NCBI RefSeq assembly: GCF_000744815.1
Contig: NZ_JQMQ01000005.1
Span: 2,364,055-2,428,054, forward strand
Direction: 5' to 3'
Source of the DNA: Phaeacidiphilus oryzae TH49
Lineage (GTDB): Bacteria; Actinomycetota; Actinomycetes; Streptomycetales; Streptomycetaceae
DNA length: 64,000 nt
The position numbers and the translations under genes are program-made. Shown piece after piece: positions 59,493 through 64,000 of the stretch (positions are counted from its first letter, which is position 1; every line of letters begins with the position of its first letter). Under the pieces are notes generated by a model. It made no database searches, was not told the origin of the DNA, and saw only the letters and a list, made by a program, of their open reading frames with translations.

Positions 59493-60176
59493 GTGACACC
59501 GCCCGAGGACCAGCACGGTCAGTTCGGCGTCCCCTACCCCGGTGCGGGCCAGGACGCCTTCGGCGTGCCCGGCGCCGACTCGGCCCAGCGGGATTCGCGG
59601 TCGCCCCAGGGGGCCCATGCCGCACACGGCGGAGGGCCCGGCGAGGCCCCGCCGTCCTCGATCTACCCCGACGGAGGTTCCGGCCCGAACTGGGCGGACG
59701 CCGGCGCGGCCTTCCGCACCCCTCCGCGCGCCGGTGAATCGGCGCAGCTCAACACCGCCGAGGAGTACGGCGGTTGGGACAACGACCCGTGGGGACTGCA
59801 GACCGCCCCGGTCTCCGAGCCGCACGGTGAGCAGGAGTCGCTGATCCGCCCGTACGCGATGACGGGTGGGCGTACCAAGCCGCGGTACCAGCTGGCCATC
59901 GAGGCCCTGGTGTCCACCACCGCGCATCCGGACCGCATCGGCGGGCTGCTGCCCGAGCACCAGCGGATCTGCGACCTGTGCATGGAACTCAAGTCGGTGG
60001 CCGAGGTCTCCGCCCTGCTGCACATGCCGCTGGGCGTGGCCCGGATCCTCGTAGCCGACCTGGCCGAATCCGGCCTGGTCGCCATCCACCAACCCGCTGC
60101 CGCCGGGGCCGACGCCGGCGGACAGCCCGACGTGACACTGCTCGAAAGGGTGCTCAGTGGACTTCGCAAGCTCTAG
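59493..60176 (+). CDS. cvnC2: DUF742 protein CvnC (second conservon)
   Basis: 227 residues. An acidic, Gly/Pro-rich N-terminus of about 115 residues that is unlike the first CvnC, then a DUF742 domain from RPYAMTGGRTKPRYQLAIEAL. The GTG follows GAGGAGGAACA. It overlaps cvnD2 by 20 bp. The last 33 codons are identical in DNA to cvnC1. Confidence 0.93.
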   Translation: MTPPEDQHGQFGVPYPGAGQDAFGVPGADSAQRDSRSPQGAHAAHGGGPGEAPPSSIYPDGGSGPNWADAGAAFRTPPRAGESAQLNTAEEYGGWDNDPWGLQTAPVSEPHGEQESLIRPYAMTGGRTKPRYQLAIEALVSTTAHPDRIGGLLPEHQRICDLCMELKSVAEVSALLHMPLGVARILVADLAESGLVAIHQPAAAGADAGGQPDVTLLERVLSGLRKL

Positions 60177-60539
60177 CGGCGCAGCCTCGACAGGCTCCGC
60201 GGCCGCCGTCCCCGGAGCCCGTACCACCACCTCGGCGAAGATCGTCGTCGCCGGCGGCTTCGGCGTGGGCAAGACCACCCTCGTCGGCGCCGTCTCCGAG
60301 ATCAACCCCCTGCGCACCGAGGCCGTCATGACCTCCGCCTCCGCAGGCATCGACGACATCAGCAAAGTCGCCGACAAGACCACCACCACCGTGGCCATGG
60401 ACTTCGGCCGCATCACCCTCGACGAAGACCTCATCCTCTACCTCTTCGGCACCCCCGGCCAGGACCGCTTCTGGTTCATGTGGGACGACCTCGTACGCGG
60501 CGCCATCGGCGCCGTCGTCCTCGTCGACACCCGGCGGCT
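60075..60539 (+). repeat. Near-identical tract shared by the two conservons (copy 2)
   Basis: Second copy of the tract at 54250-54714, offset by 5825 bp. The single difference is at 60492. It covers the end of cvnC2 and the first two thirds of cvnD2. Confidence 0.95.
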
Positions 60540-60768
60540 GGCGGACTGCTTCCCGGCGATCGACTACTTCGAGAACAGCGGACTCCCCTTCATCATCGCG
60601 CTGAACGCGTTCGACGGGCAGCAGCCGCACACCGCAGACGAGGTCCGCGAGGCGCTCCAGCTGGGACCGGACATCCCGATCCTCAGCACGGACGCGCGGC
60701 GCCGGGACTCGGCGAAGGCGACGCTGATCACGCTGGTCGAGCACGCGCTGCTGGCGCGGCTGCGGTAA
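60157..60768 (+). CDS. cvnD2: Conservon GTPase CvnD (second conservon)
   Basis: 203 residues. Same motifs as CvnD1 (GGFGVGKTT; FGTPGQDRFWFMW). The G4 position reads LNAFDG, so neither copy has the usual Lys. Differs from CvnD1 at only a few residues, all in the last third, where the DNA identity is lower and the codons diverge. Confidence 0.95.
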   Translation: MDFASSSGAASTGSAAAVPGARTTTSAKIVVAGGFGVGKTTLVGAVSEINPLRTEAVMTSASAGIDDISKVADKTTTTVAMDFGRITLDEDLILYLFGTPGQDRFWFMWDDLVRGAIGAVVLVDTRRLADCFPAIDYFENSGLPFIIALNAFDGQQPHTADEVREALQLGPDIPILSTDARRRDSAKATLITLVEHALLARLR

Positions 60769-60806
60769 GAAGCACACCGGGGGGACGGCCCCCCCGACCC
60801 CCAACG

Positions 60807-60890
60807 GCGCGGCAGTCGGTGGCGGAGACCGGGTTGTGCGACCCAGTGCCCGCCGCCGAGTGCGGCGCCGTAGCCGTTCCGGGCGCGCGG
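60807..60890. repeat. Dispersed palindromic repeat, core-type copy
   Basis: Contains gtcggtggcggagaccgggttg and, inverted, ccgccgccgagtgcggcgccgtag; the same inner core as at 30181, 38783 and 43090. It lies in the short gap between the convergent cvnD2 and cimA and could end both transcripts. Confidence 0.65.
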
Positions 60891-60891
60891 C

Positions 60892-62493
60892 CTACTCCGC
60901 GGGGGTCTGGCCGGCCTTGAGGAGGCCGTAGGTGTAGGCGTCGTCCAGGGCCTGCCAGGAGGCGGCGATGACGTTGGAGCCGACGCCCACCGTGGACCAC
61001 TCGCTCTTGCCGTCGCTGGTGGTGACCAGGACGCGGGTGACGGACTCGGTGCCGTGCCGCTCCTCCAGGATGCGGACCTTGTAGTCCACCAGCTCGAAGG
61101 CGGCGAGCTGCGGGTAGATCCGCTCCAGCCCGGCCCGGAGCGCCCGGTCGAGGGCGTTCACCGGACCGTTCCCCTCCCCCGTGGTGACCAGGCGCTCGCC
61201 CTTGGCCCACAGCTTCACGGTGGCCTCGTTGGCCTGCTCGCCGTCCGGCCGCTGCTCGACGATGGCCCGCCAGCTCTCCAGCGCGAAGAAGCGCTGGGGC
61301 AGGTCGCCCGACTGCTCCCGGAGGAGGAGTTCGAAGGAGGCGTCCGCGGCCTCGTAGGTGTAGCCGGCGTTCTCCCGCTCCTTGAGGACGTCGACGACCC
61401 GGCCCACCAGCTCCCGGTCCCCGCTCAGGTCGAAGCCCAGCTCCTTGCCCTTGAGCTCGACGGAGGCCCGGCCGGCCATGTCGGAGACCAGCATCCGCAT
61501 GGTGTTGCCGACCAGCTCCGGGTCGATGTGCTGGTAGAGGTCCGGGTCCACCTTGATCGCGGAGGCGTGCAGCCCGCCCTTGTGGGCGAAGGCCGAGACG
61601 CCGACGTACGGCTGGTGGGTGGCCGGGGCGAGGTTGACCACCTCGGCGATGGCGTGCGAGATCCGGGTCATCTCGGCGAGCCGGCCGGCCGGGAGGACGC
61701 TGCGGCCGAGCTTCAGTTCGAGGGCCGCGGTGACCGGGAAGAGGTTGGCGTTGCCGACCCGCTCGCCGTAGCCGTTCGCGGTGCACTGGACGTGGGTGGC
61801 GCCGCCCTCGACCGCGGCCAGGGTGTTGGCCACCGCGCAGCCGGTGTCGTCCTGGGCGTGGATGCCGAGCCGGGCGCCGGTCTCGGCGAGGGTGTCGGCG
61901 ACGATCTCGCGTACGCCGGACGGCAGCATCCCGCCGTTGGTGTCGCACAGGACGACGACGTCGGCGCCGGCCTCGTGGGCCGTGCGGACGACGGAGAGGG
62001 CGTACTCGCGGTTGGCCCGATAGCCGTCGAAGTAGTGCTCGCAGTCGATGAAGACCCGGCGGCCCTGCGCGCGGAGGAACTCCACGGAGTCGCGGACCAT
62101 GGCGAGGTTCTCGTCCAGGGTGGTGCGCAGCGCCAGCTCCACGTGCCGGTCGTGGGACTTGGCGACCAGGGTGACCACCGGGGCGCCCGAGTCGAGGAGC
62201 GCCTTGAGCTGCTGGTCCTCGGCGGCGGTGCCGTTGGCGCGGCGGGTGGAGCCGAAGGCGACCAGCTGGGCGTGGGAGAGGTCGAGCTCGGTCGCGGCGC
62301 GGGAGAAGAACTCGGTGTCGCGGGGGTTGGCGCCGGGCCAGCCGCCCTCGATGAAGCCGACGCCGAACTCGTCCAGATGGCGGGCGATGGTGAGCTTGTC
62401 CGCGACGGTCAGCTTGATGCCTTCGCGCTGGGCGCCGTCTCGGAGGGTGGTGTCGAAGACGTGGAAGGCGTCGGAGGTGGGCTGGGTAGTCAT
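60892..62493 (-). CDS. cimA: Citramalate synthase
   Basis: 533 residues. Condenses acetyl-CoA and pyruvate to citramalate, a route to 2-oxobutyrate for isoleucine. The HMGL-like barrel has DTTLRDGAQREGIKLTVADK near residue 12 with catalytic Arg/Asp, the metal motif in HxH form within SAFAHKGGLHASAI near 312, and GNANLFPV near 257. A C-terminal LeuA-type allosteric domain (from about 420) is present and likely binds an end product. The ATG at 62493 follows AGGAG by 7 nt; the open frame runs 63 codons upstream through the attenuator and is not coding there. Confidence 0.93.
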   Translation of the reverse strand: MTTQPTSDAFHVFDTTLRDGAQREGIKLTVADKLTIARHLDEFGVGFIEGGWPGANPRDTEFFSRAATELDLSHAQLVAFGSTRRANGTAAEDQQLKALLDSGAPVVTLVAKSHDRHVELALRTTLDENLAMVRDSVEFLRAQGRRVFIDCEHYFDGYRANREYALSVVRTAHEAGADVVVLCDTNGGMLPSGVREIVADTLAETGARLGIHAQDDTGCAVANTLAAVEGGATHVQCTANGYGERVGNANLFPVTAALELKLGRSVLPAGRLAEMTRISHAIAEVVNLAPATHQPYVGVSAFAHKGGLHASAIKVDPDLYQHIDPELVGNTMRMLVSDMAGRASVELKGKELGFDLSGDRELVGRVVDVLKERENAGYTYEAADASFELLLREQSGDLPQRFFALESWRAIVEQRPDGEQANEATVKLWAKGERLVTTGEGNGPVNALDRALRAGLERIYPQLAAFELVDYKVRILEERHGTESVTRVLVTTSDGKSEWSTVGVGSNVIAASWQALDDAYTYGLLKAGQTPAE

Positions 62494-62529
62494 CGGGGTG
62501 CTCCTGTCTCCTGTGCGGAGGGGTGGCCC

Positions 62530-62563
62530 AAAACAAAAGACCCCTCGCGGGTGCGAGAGGTCT
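62530..62563 (-). terminator. Attenuator terminator of cimA
   Basis: An 11-bp stem (AGACCTCTCGC / GCGAGGGGTCT, one G-T pair) with an ACCC loop, followed by TTTTGTTTT on the minus strand, about 40 nt before the cimA start. A textbook intrinsic terminator in the wrong place for an ordinary leader. Confidence 0.85.
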
Positions 62564-62579
62564 GCGCGCGGGTCTGGGA

Positions 62580-62608
62580 CGCGGTGGGCGGACGGGGTCG
62601 TCACCGCG
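62580..62608 (-). promoter_or_regulatory. Leader hairpin overlapping the leader-peptide stop
   Basis: CGCGGTG and CACCGCG form a perfect 7-bp stem that includes the TGA of the leader peptide. In attenuators such a hairpin is the pause or anti-terminator element. Confidence 0.5.
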
Positions 62609-62651
62609 GACCGGCGCGCCTGGCGGTAATAATGCTGAGCCGCTCGGGCAT
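62601..62651 (-). CDS. Leader peptide of cimA with tandem isoleucine codons
   Basis: 16 codons encoding MPERLSIITARRAGPR. It has Leu-Ser followed by two ATT isoleucine codons, very rare in this GC-rich genome. The TARR sequence after the hydrophobic codons is as in the leader peptide of Corynebacterium ilvBNC as I recall it. Its stop codon sits in the first leader hairpin and the terminator follows. The start lacks a strong ribosome-binding site, and the transcript may begin close to it. Confidence 0.6.
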   Translation of the reverse strand: MPERLSIITARRAGPR

Positions 62652-62696
62652 GTTCGGCAGTTTGCCACAGCGCGGCGCGCACGGGGACGCGGTCTC

Positions 62697-62703
62697 AGTA
62701 TCC
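62697..62703 (-). promoter_or_regulatory. Candidate -10 element of cimA
   Basis: GGATACTGAGAC on the minus strand. The same GGATACTGrGAC words occur upstream of ilvE (63978-63984), so this is probably the shared -10 region. It would place the transcription start about 35 nt before the leader peptide. No clear -35 is seen. Confidence 0.45.
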
Positions 62704-62732
62704 GGTCACCGTGGCGGACGGCCGCCGCAGTT

Positions 62733-62779
62733 CCCCGCGCCCCTGGATCCGCCCTTCGGGCCGCATCCGGGGCGCGGGG
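62733..62779 (-). terminator. Repeat-derived terminator of ilvE
   Basis: CCCCGCGCCCC / GGGGCGCGGGG, 11 bp perfect, continued inward by GGAT/ATCC and GCCC/GGGC stems. It lies 14 bp after the ilvE stop and is a hairpin copy of the dispersed repeat (right arm: cagttccccgcgcccctg). Confidence 0.7.
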
Positions 62780-62792
62780 GCCGCCGCGGGCG

Positions 62793-63872
62793 TCAGGCGA
62801 TCGGGTGGCGCCAGCCGTGGGGGTCCTCGGCGTTGCCGGTCTGCAGGGAGAGCAGCGCCTCGCGGAGCCGGAGGGTGACCGGCCCGGGCTCGCCGGAGCC
62901 CTGCGTCCAGGCGGCGCCCTTGGTCTTCACCTCGCCGACGGGGGTGATGACGGCGGCCGTGCCGCACGCGAAGACCTCGGTGAGGCTGCCGTTCGCGGTG
63001 TCCTCGCGCCACTGGTCGACGGAGATCCGGGCCTCCTCGGACTCGTAGCCGAGGTCGCGGGCGAGGGTGAGGAGGGAGTCGCGGGTCACGCCCTCCAGGA
63101 GGGAGCCGGTGAGGGCGGGGGTGACGATCCGGTCCCCGTACACGAAGTACAGGTTCATCCCGCCGAGCTCCTCGACCCACCGGCGCTCGACCGCGTCCAG
63201 GTAGGCGACCTGCGCGCAGCCCTGTTCGGCCGCCTCGGCCTGGGCCAGCAGGGAGGCCGCGTAGTTGCCGCCGGTCTTGGCGTCGCCCATGCCGCCGGGG
63301 ACGGCGCGGACGCGGTCCTGGGAGATCCAGATGGAGACCGGCTTGACCCCGCCCGGGAAGTACGGGCCGGCCGGCGAGGCGATCACCAGGAAGAGGTACT
63401 CGTTGGCCGGCTTCACGCCGAGCCCGACCTCGGACGCGATCATGAACGGGCGGAGGTAGAGGGAGGCCTCGCCGCCGTGCGGGGGGACCCACTCCACGTC
63501 CTGCGCGACCAGCGCGTCGCAGGCCTCGATGAAGGTCTCGACCGGGAGCTCCGGCATCGCCAGGGTGCGCGCCGAGTGCTGGAAGCGGAGCGCGTTGCGC
63601 TCGGGACGGAAGAGGGCGACGCCGCCGTCCGGCTGCCGGTACGCCTTCAGGCCCTCGAAGATCTCCTGCGCGTAGTGGAGGGTCATGTTCGCCGGGTCCA
63701 TCTCCAGCGGTCCGTACGGGACCAGCTGGGCGTCGTGCCAGCCGCGGCCCTCGGTCCACCGGATGGTCACCATGTTGTCGGTGAAGTAGCGGCCGAACCC
63801 GGGGGCGGCCAGGCGGGCTTCGCGCTCGGCGGCGGGAAGCGGGTGGGCGGAGGGCTTGAGTTCGATCTGCAT
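62793..63872 (-). CDS. ilvE: Branched-chain amino acid aminotransferase
   Basis: 359 residues. PLP enzyme for the last step of leucine, isoleucine and valine synthesis. The PLP lysine is predicted as Lys199 in GGMGDAKTGGNYAAS; AQEIFEGLKAYR near residue 68, YLRPFMIASE near 139 and EVFACGTAAVITPV near 310 are typical of the class IV fold. Transcribed toward cimA, which shares its promoter word and pathway. Confidence 0.96.
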   Translation of the reverse strand: MQIELKPSAHPLPAAEREARLAAPGFGRYFTDNMVTIRWTEGRGWHDAQLVPYGPLEMDPANMTLHYAQEIFEGLKAYRQPDGGVALFRPERNALRFQHSARTLAMPELPVETFIEACDALVAQDVEWVPPHGGEASLYLRPFMIASEVGLGVKPANEYLFLVIASPAGPYFPGGVKPVSIWISQDRVRAVPGGMGDAKTGGNYAASLLAQAEAAEQGCAQVAYLDAVERRWVEELGGMNLYFVYGDRIVTPALTGSLLEGVTRDSLLTLARDLGYESEEARISVDQWREDTANGSLTEVFACGTAAVITPVGEVKTKGAAWTQGSGEPGPVTLRLREALLSLQTGNAEDPHGWRHPIA

Positions 63873-63923
63873 GTTCGGGTTCGTCCTTCACCTGTCGTCG
63901 TGACGGGACGTGCGCCTGCCGGG

Positions 63924-63984
63924 GTTTCACCGCACTCGCGCGGGGGCTGGCTGAAACTCTCGGTACTCGGACGTCCCAGTATCC
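63924..63984 (-). promoter_or_regulatory. ilvE upstream region with candidate promoter and inverted repeat
   Basis: On the minus strand GGATACT (63978-63984) is a candidate -10 with the same flanks as before cimA. Between it and the ATG, GTTTCA / TGAAAC (63924-63929 and 63952-63957) forms a perfect 6-bp inverted repeat in the leader. The -35 would be at the edge of the window. Confidence 0.4.
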
Positions 63985-64000
63985 AGGGTCGCATCCCCGG

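Follow-up and report, generated by a model that had tools for sequence, protein, structure and literature searches.

The window analysed here, a stretch of 64,000 nucleotides from Phaeacidiphilus oryzae TH49, carries the citramalate synthase gene cimA on the minus strand (60892..62493, 533 amino acids). The cimA product scored 643 bits against TIGR00977 (cut-off 450), and domain matches identified a catalytic HMGL-like domain and a C-terminal LeuA_dimer domain (PF08502, allosteric), in agreement with the C-terminal regulatory domain that an earlier note on this DNA had assigned to CimA. Upstream of cimA lies ilvE (62793-63872, minus strand), with its own hairpin region and a promoter-like stretch between the two genes. 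Directly after ilvE, a strong G+C-rich inverted repeat (62725-62776, minus strand) is probably the ilvE terminator; it also gave a chance sub-threshold match to Rfam.

The region between this repeat and cimA contains, on the minus strand, a short leader. A -10-like hexamer, CAAACT (62659..62664), lies 7 nt ahead of an ATG, from which a leaderless transcript would begin. The frame reads MPERLSIITARRAGPR followed by a stop and comprises 16 codons, from the ATG at 62651 to the TGA at 62601 (62601..62651). Its codons 7 and 8 are ATT ATT (62628..62633), the putative sensor codons, and Ile codons at this place are kept in relatives. The earlier note had pointed to this 16-residue frame with two rare ATT codons, and both its presence and the rarity of the codons were confirmed: ATT accounts for 0 of the 26 Ile codons in cimA and ilvE of the window. 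Hairpin P1 (62564..62619; 5' arm 62619-62609, 3' arm 62574-62564) was delimited by folding and covariation. With zero gap it is followed by the terminator hairpin P2 (62538..62563, 11 pairs; terminator scan and folding) and a U-rich tail, TTTGTTTTGG (62530..62537; terminator scan). The strong terminator with a T-rich tail that had been claimed 5' of cimA was thus recovered by the scan above shuffled sequence (2 terminator-like sites in 61500-63200 vs. 0.2 ± 0.5 in shuffles), the other site being weak (5 pairs, at 62903, on the opposite strand). The hairpin said to cover the leader stop codon is also present, but it belongs to a larger helix, P1, the 3' arm of which runs up to the base just before the terminator. 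The leader fold had an energy of −100.6 kcal/mol (z −2.68), and 1 of 200 shuffles folded equally well. Folding of the window by itself says little; the comparison among relatives was what decided.

The close set consisted of the window and, from a genome collection, the 80 cimA loci most closely related to it, mostly from Streptomyces. The terminator and the leader frame were carried by all 80 relatives, and the terminator was found within four substitutions in 81/81 sequences. The usual leader of the relatives is MLSFAMIIGSRRAGPQ followed by a stop, with a GTG start 6 nt after a CAGACT-like hexamer. Since leader codon 6 is ACG and not ATG in some of them, the GTG, not the inner ATG, must start their frame. 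A first tabulation left 5 of the 81 rows unparsed and misparsed locus L053; a later one parsed 80/81. Two adjacent Ile codons were present in 77/81 leaders, the remaining four having one Ile (Ile-Met in L013, L040 and L044, Ile-Thr in L062). The alignment of cimA upstream regions that had been suggested as a check therefore showed conserved Ile codons in the Streptomyces relatives, and the same held class-wide (73/74 model matches, see below). The codon bias was likewise conserved: ATT made up 123 of the 152 Ile codons (81%) in the leaders of 76 relatives vs. 8 of 1,470 (0.5%) in cimA of the 80 relatives.

Translation of the leader was indicated by its stop codon. The P1 5' arm, GCGCGCCGGTCC, was in one frame in 60 of the 80 parsed close-set sequences and shifted in 19, and one leader stopped before the arm. 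The 60 unshifted leaders stop 16 nt into the P1 5' arm, and none of them has a stop triplet at +23. In contrast, all 19 frame-shifted leaders have a stop triplet at +23 and end there. Because the moved stop codon matches the frame shift (19/19 vs. 0/60), we consider the frame to be translated; as judged from these sequences, the stop codon tracks the reading frame rather than the RNA. The leader stop codon was located inside P1 or at most 3 nt before it in 107/111 leaders. Very short leaders of only 8-9 codons occurred at L005, L117, L130 and L162 (e.g., MSFAMIIG, MAQTLIIE and MSTSTIIIA, each followed by a stop).

TIGR00977 was matched at E <= 1e-100 in 199 of the 246 genomes of the class, and the upstream regions of 100 cimA genes out of these 199 genomes formed the class-wide set. 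A short frame with Ile-Ile followed by a terminator was found in 61/100 regions vs. 1/2,000 dinucleotide shuffles. This rule was strict, and its 39 misses include element-bearing loci (L097, L123, L115 and others) that were matched by R1, a covariance model built from 39 aligned leaders (alignment A1). R1 matched 74/100 class-wide cimA loci (E <= 4.3e-6), of which 35 were in its training set. An Ile codon occupied the sensor place of a short frame in 73 of these 74 matches (two or more Ile in 69), and a -10-like hexamer stood at leaderless distance in 64. There was no R1 match at 26/100 cimA loci, including 12/12 of family f16 and 7/7 of family f21 (small genomes). As a sequence pattern, an extended -10 at the start codon was present in 124/138 leaders vs. 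725/6,900 random placements, and the first Ile codon followed the start by 15 or 18 nt in 120 of the 124 leaders with a -10. A search with Rfam 15 (window 60000-64000) gave no family match at the element, only sub-threshold chance matches at cimA. A second Rfam search (11 loci) likewise gave none at the element and returned, at a single locus, just one tRNA and a weak match to a plastid family.

Both hairpins were supported by covariation. In A1 (39 rows), 82 double-changed cells kept their pairing, compared with 21.5 ± 4.0 after partners were re-dealt and at most 24 in slid-partner controls; double changes were present in 7/11 pairs of P1 and 6/11 of P2. Over 61 cimA leaders, pairing energies were lower than in shuffles for P1 (z −2.73) and P2 (z −4.51), with 97 of 3,050 shuffles as stable as the real P1 segment. 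P1 starts 3-9 nt past the last Ile codon, mostly 4-6 nt. The gap between P1 and P2 was 0 nt in 47/61 and 1 nt in 11/61 leaders of the diverse set, and 0 nt in 71/77 and 1 nt in 6/77 leaders of Streptomycetaceae. Such abutment (gap 0-1) thus characterized 58/61 diverse leaders vs. 719/3,050 when this stretch was shuffled. At the base of P1, the four 5'-arm positions had a G-C share of 0.98 in the class set and 1.0 in Streptomycetaceae; the base of P2 was weaker (0.61 and 0.51, respectively). In L103, and probably also in L136, the terminator finder set P2 at a wrong place. Comparison among relatives thus supports the putative sensor codons, the translated frame, P1, P2 and the abutment of P1 and P2.

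The position of the ribosome relative to P1 was modelled with two footprints. In one, the ribosome blocks RNA only as far as its mRNA entry, 8 nt on from where the A-site codon starts; frameshift signals, with a spacer of 5-9 nt (accessible part of PMC7618472), fit this figure. At +8, P1 was predicted to survive in 61/61 leaders whether the A site held the first or the last Ile codon, and to be lost with the ribosome at the stop codon in 60/61. With the toeprint footprint (+13), P1 remained intact at the first Ile codon in 56/61 and at the last in 3/61. The control and stop codons are therefore placed such that ribosome position decides the first hairpin, as in trp-type leaders, to an extent that depends on the footprint assumed. 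In the trp leader, the antiterminator occupies a place matching that of P1 here. P2 was predicted to form in 59/61 leaders regardless of P1 masking (the two exceptions include L103, in which P2 was miscalled), so folding energies alone show no switch.

These observations are best explained by a leaderless, ribosome-mediated transcription attenuator that senses charged tRNA-Ile and very probably sets cimA transcription. Like branched-chain leaders of the ilvB/leuS type, the cimA leader has a short translated frame with codons for the amino acid of its pathway, a leaderless start after a -10 element (by sequence pattern), and an upstream hairpin with an intrinsic terminator, and R1 joins the cimA, ilvB and leuS leaders. 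Transcription would begin at or beside the leader start codon, and a ribosome would translate the leader immediately. When charged Ile-tRNA is short, the ribosome would halt while an Ile codon occupies its A site, 3-9 nt ahead of P1. When isoleucine is plentiful, it would reach the stop codon just before or inside the P1 5' arm and melt P1; P2 could then form and transcription would end ahead of cimA. We infer the promoter, the start site, termination and its dependence on isoleucine, as well as the influence on citramalate flux. For the step by which an intact P1 would prevent termination, a steric action is suggested, since P1 and P2 have no base in common, and steric exclusion is our favoured guess. 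With P1 only 0-1 nt from the P2 base, no RNA next to P2 would remain single-stranded where it leaves the polymerase, and the abutting helix would hinder closure of the weak P2 base. The element is real and conserved, and the earlier note was right in its main point. Its proposal of attenuation by Ile-tRNA charging is backed by the Ile codons, the compensated stop codon, the leaderless -10, the covariation and the occurrence of the scaffold with other codons; a strand-sharing antiterminator was not found.

That missing part is central to one alternative, a classical attenuator in which P1 pairs with one arm of P2 to give an antiterminator that escaped our tests. This is the arrangement suggested for ilvB in Corynebacterium and M. 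tuberculosis. Such antiterminators have been proposed for ilvB leaders (accessible parts of PMC10272879, PMC11857589 and PMC13236596), the P1 loop matches the P2 3' arm by 6 bp at the single loci L086, L099 and L150, and the streptomycete consensus shows a weak 2:4 pairing once P2 is forbidden. Against this, pairing of the P1 loop and 3' arm with the P2 5' arm (2:3) was worse than in shuffles (mean z +0.72) and pairing with the P2 3' arm (2:4) was no better (z +0.03), each over 61 cimA leaders. Antiterminator pairing was likewise not above shuffles in ilvB, leuS, ilvA and leuA leaders. The P1 loop matched the P2 3' arm at p <= 0.05 in just 3/64 class and 1/77 streptomycete cimA leaders, and P1 could be extended into P2 in 6/64 and 0/77, respectively; the corresponding leuS count is inflated, as the P1/P2 border is displaced by 3 nt in some leuS leaders. 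Tested in four ways, a strand-sharing antiterminator was discarded as a common property of these leaders; a 6-bp match remains at single loci. The textbook trp attenuator shares with the cimA leader a leader peptide, control codons, a stop codon that precedes the first hairpin or falls within it and an intrinsic terminator, but its mutually exclusive 2:3 pairing was not found in cimA leaders. Because of this absence of a strand-sharing antiterminator, the cimA leader does not have the textbook trp layout, and we regard the classical alternative as distinctly unlikely.

The same sensor could also act with the opposite role of P1, which would stack on P2 or pause RNA polymerase and so strengthen termination, a stalled ribosome then opening P1 and allowing readthrough. 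P1 and P2 are compatible and abutting, as this would need; with the +13 footprint, a ribosome at the last Ile codon opens P1 in 58/61 leaders, and the distance to P1 is kept more tightly by the last sensor codon (SD 1.6) than by the first (SD 2.46). However, a ribosome at the first Ile codon leaves P1 intact in 56/61 even at +13, a ribosome at the stop codon opens P1 too, so that excess and starvation would look alike, and P2 by itself already resembles a complete terminator. We consider this reversed role unlikely. In another reading, no amino acid is sensed: the leader is a structured 5' end or a premature terminator that acts constitutively, and something else explains the retained Ile codons. 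This would account for the strength and conservation of the terminator, but is very improbable given that the sensor codons match the downstream pathway, the stop codon follows the frame and the Ile codons are biased towards ATT. A conserved structured 5' leader ahead of a biosynthesis gene might equally be a metabolite riboswitch or a protein-binding leader. Yet the two Rfam searches gave no family match at the element, and what is conserved amounts to codons plus two simple hairpins, A1 showing no unpaired pocket that is conserved; this explanation is the least credible of the four.

An attenuator sensing Ile-tRNA would join a known group. Published descriptions or proposals of ribosome-mediated attenuators in actinobacteria cover ilvB, leuS, leuA and trp genes (accessible parts of PMC1262725, PMC8079986, PMC10272879, PMC11109978 and PMC13236596). 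In Streptomyces lividans, the leaderless IlvL and the leuS leader, MRAVRLLLSEPR followed by a stop, are both accompanied by hairpins and a U-rich stretch (PMC8079986, in part). cimA is absent from the table of eight S. lividans leaders (table 4 of PMC8079986) and from the leader-bearing genes in the accessible part of PMC1262725, and we found no report of a cimA leader in the open-access literature, in which the ilvB and leuS leaders are already known. The Corynebacterium ilvB(NC) leader (ilvB-II motif; a three-hairpin 'fast' attenuator) is similar, with a leaderless short frame, Leu, Val and Ile codons, rare regulatory codons (CUU, GUA) and a hairpin beside an intrinsic terminator (accessible parts of PMC10272879 and PMC11857589). 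In that leader, a GCC trinucleotide is common to antiterminator and terminator, or else P2 is paired by the P1 loop, whereas in cimA leaders the hairpins abut with no common bases and the codons would sense Ile only. The nearest studied case is C. glutamicum ilvBNC, for which mutations support adjacent antiterminator and terminator hairpins overlapping in three bases (PMC11857589, in part). The M. tuberculosis ilvB1 leader is also alike, with control codons LVVI by the published description; their change to Ala led to low, inducer-independent reporter expression and abolished induction. It precedes another gene, and its anti-terminator and terminator are given as mutually exclusive (PMC13236596, accessible part). 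At S. coelicolor ilvB, changes of the candidate codons are reported to have left regulation unaffected (work cited in the accessible part of PMC1262725), an argument against simple codon sensing in this sister leader.

The scaffold was not confined to cimA. In the own genome, R1 matched cimA with 74 bits, and this cimA-trained model also recognized the ilvB leader (39 bits) and the leuS leader (33 bits), in keeping with the likeness to the Streptomyces ilvB and leuS leaders; the identity of the genes was confirmed, and one further match was due to chance (E 4.1). Among 98 genomes of the class, 70 had a match. For a tally of downstream genes, 60 places were hand-picked from the R1 match list; they were followed by ilvB (34), leuS (9), cimA (8), ilvA (5), leuA (2) and none of the five reference proteins (2). 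With sensor letters assigned per gene before the tally, the control codons were Ile runs at cimA, a single Ile at the four parsed ilvA leaders, Leu-Leu(-Leu) at leuS and leuA, and mixtures of Ile, Leu and Val at ilvB. All five ilvA places belong to family f16 (L223-L226, L275), in which an Ile leader precedes the threonine ammonia-lyase gene ilvA while cimA is without a model match (12/12); in this family, the control point seems to have moved from cimA to ilvA. As the P1-P2 scaffold with Leu-Leu-Leu precedes leuA at L220 and L221 (family f11) and L278 (outside the class), these leuA genes have a terminator-bearing leader. Outside the class, 20 R1 places were retrieved, 16 before ilvB, one before leuA, one (L291) with too little sequence and two misfits, judged by the longest downstream frame: a prephenate dehydratase (L282, codons V-L-L-I) and an isocitrate lyase (L290).

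Two places in the class lay ahead of less expected genes. The leader at L239, MRARLLLTGPR and a stop, is like leuS leaders, and its downstream gene was unmatched by the five reference proteins. A strong R1 match at L235 (G087:C6:196631-196722, minus strand) has the leader MFTPRIII and a stop and lies next to a tRNA gene; the gene after it encodes a small protein whose only ACT-domain match is weak (E 0.0037, below the cut-off) and is a candidate for an unrecognised isoleucine-regulated gene.

Since R1 matched before ilvB, leuS, ilvA and leuA, the cimA leader belongs to an actinobacterial scaffold that was seen most often before ilvB. The exchange of control codons on this common scaffold is a natural codon swap. 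Tentatively, we suggest that an old actinobacterial scaffold may switch without strand exchange, the abutting P1 serving as a steric antiterminator barely touched by the waiting ribosome, with the control codons alone swapped among cimA, ilvA, ilvB, leuA and leuS.

Upstream of the leader, a CTGAGAC box (62692..62698, minus strand; 47 nt 5' of the leader start) has a conserved position in Streptomycetaceae: CTGAGAC/GTGAGAY was found 46-48 nt 5' of the leader start in 79/81 cimA promoters of this family vs. 58/1,620 shuffles. Of the two rows without a counted box, L025 lacks it and L021 was unparsed. A similar box, GGATACTGGGAC, occurs upstream of ilvE in the window. The box is possibly a regulator site or a promoter part, unneeded for the attenuator. 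NdgR was considered as a cimA regulator and rejected, because SCO5529, which we take to be the S. coelicolor cimA locus, is nowhere named in the main text of the ChIP-seq study on NdgR and the motif differs. Compared by eye, the box did not match the 15-bp NdgR motif (consensus in PMC4340878).

That no shared-strand antiterminator was found is relevant to a long-standing puzzle, namely that actinobacterial ilvB and leuA leaders look like attenuators yet lack parts or behave oddly (accessible part of PMC1262725), and the codon swaps among cimA, ilvA, ilvB, leuA and leuS allow testing what a leader senses. The Ile leader also supports annotating these LeuA-like enzymes as isoleucine enzymes. cimA is a control point on the way to isoleucine and to odd-chain precursors used by streptomycetes, and in most of the sampled class it is preceded by a predicted Ile-tRNA switch, an arrangement that probably lets the cell make citramalate synthase only at isoleucine shortage.
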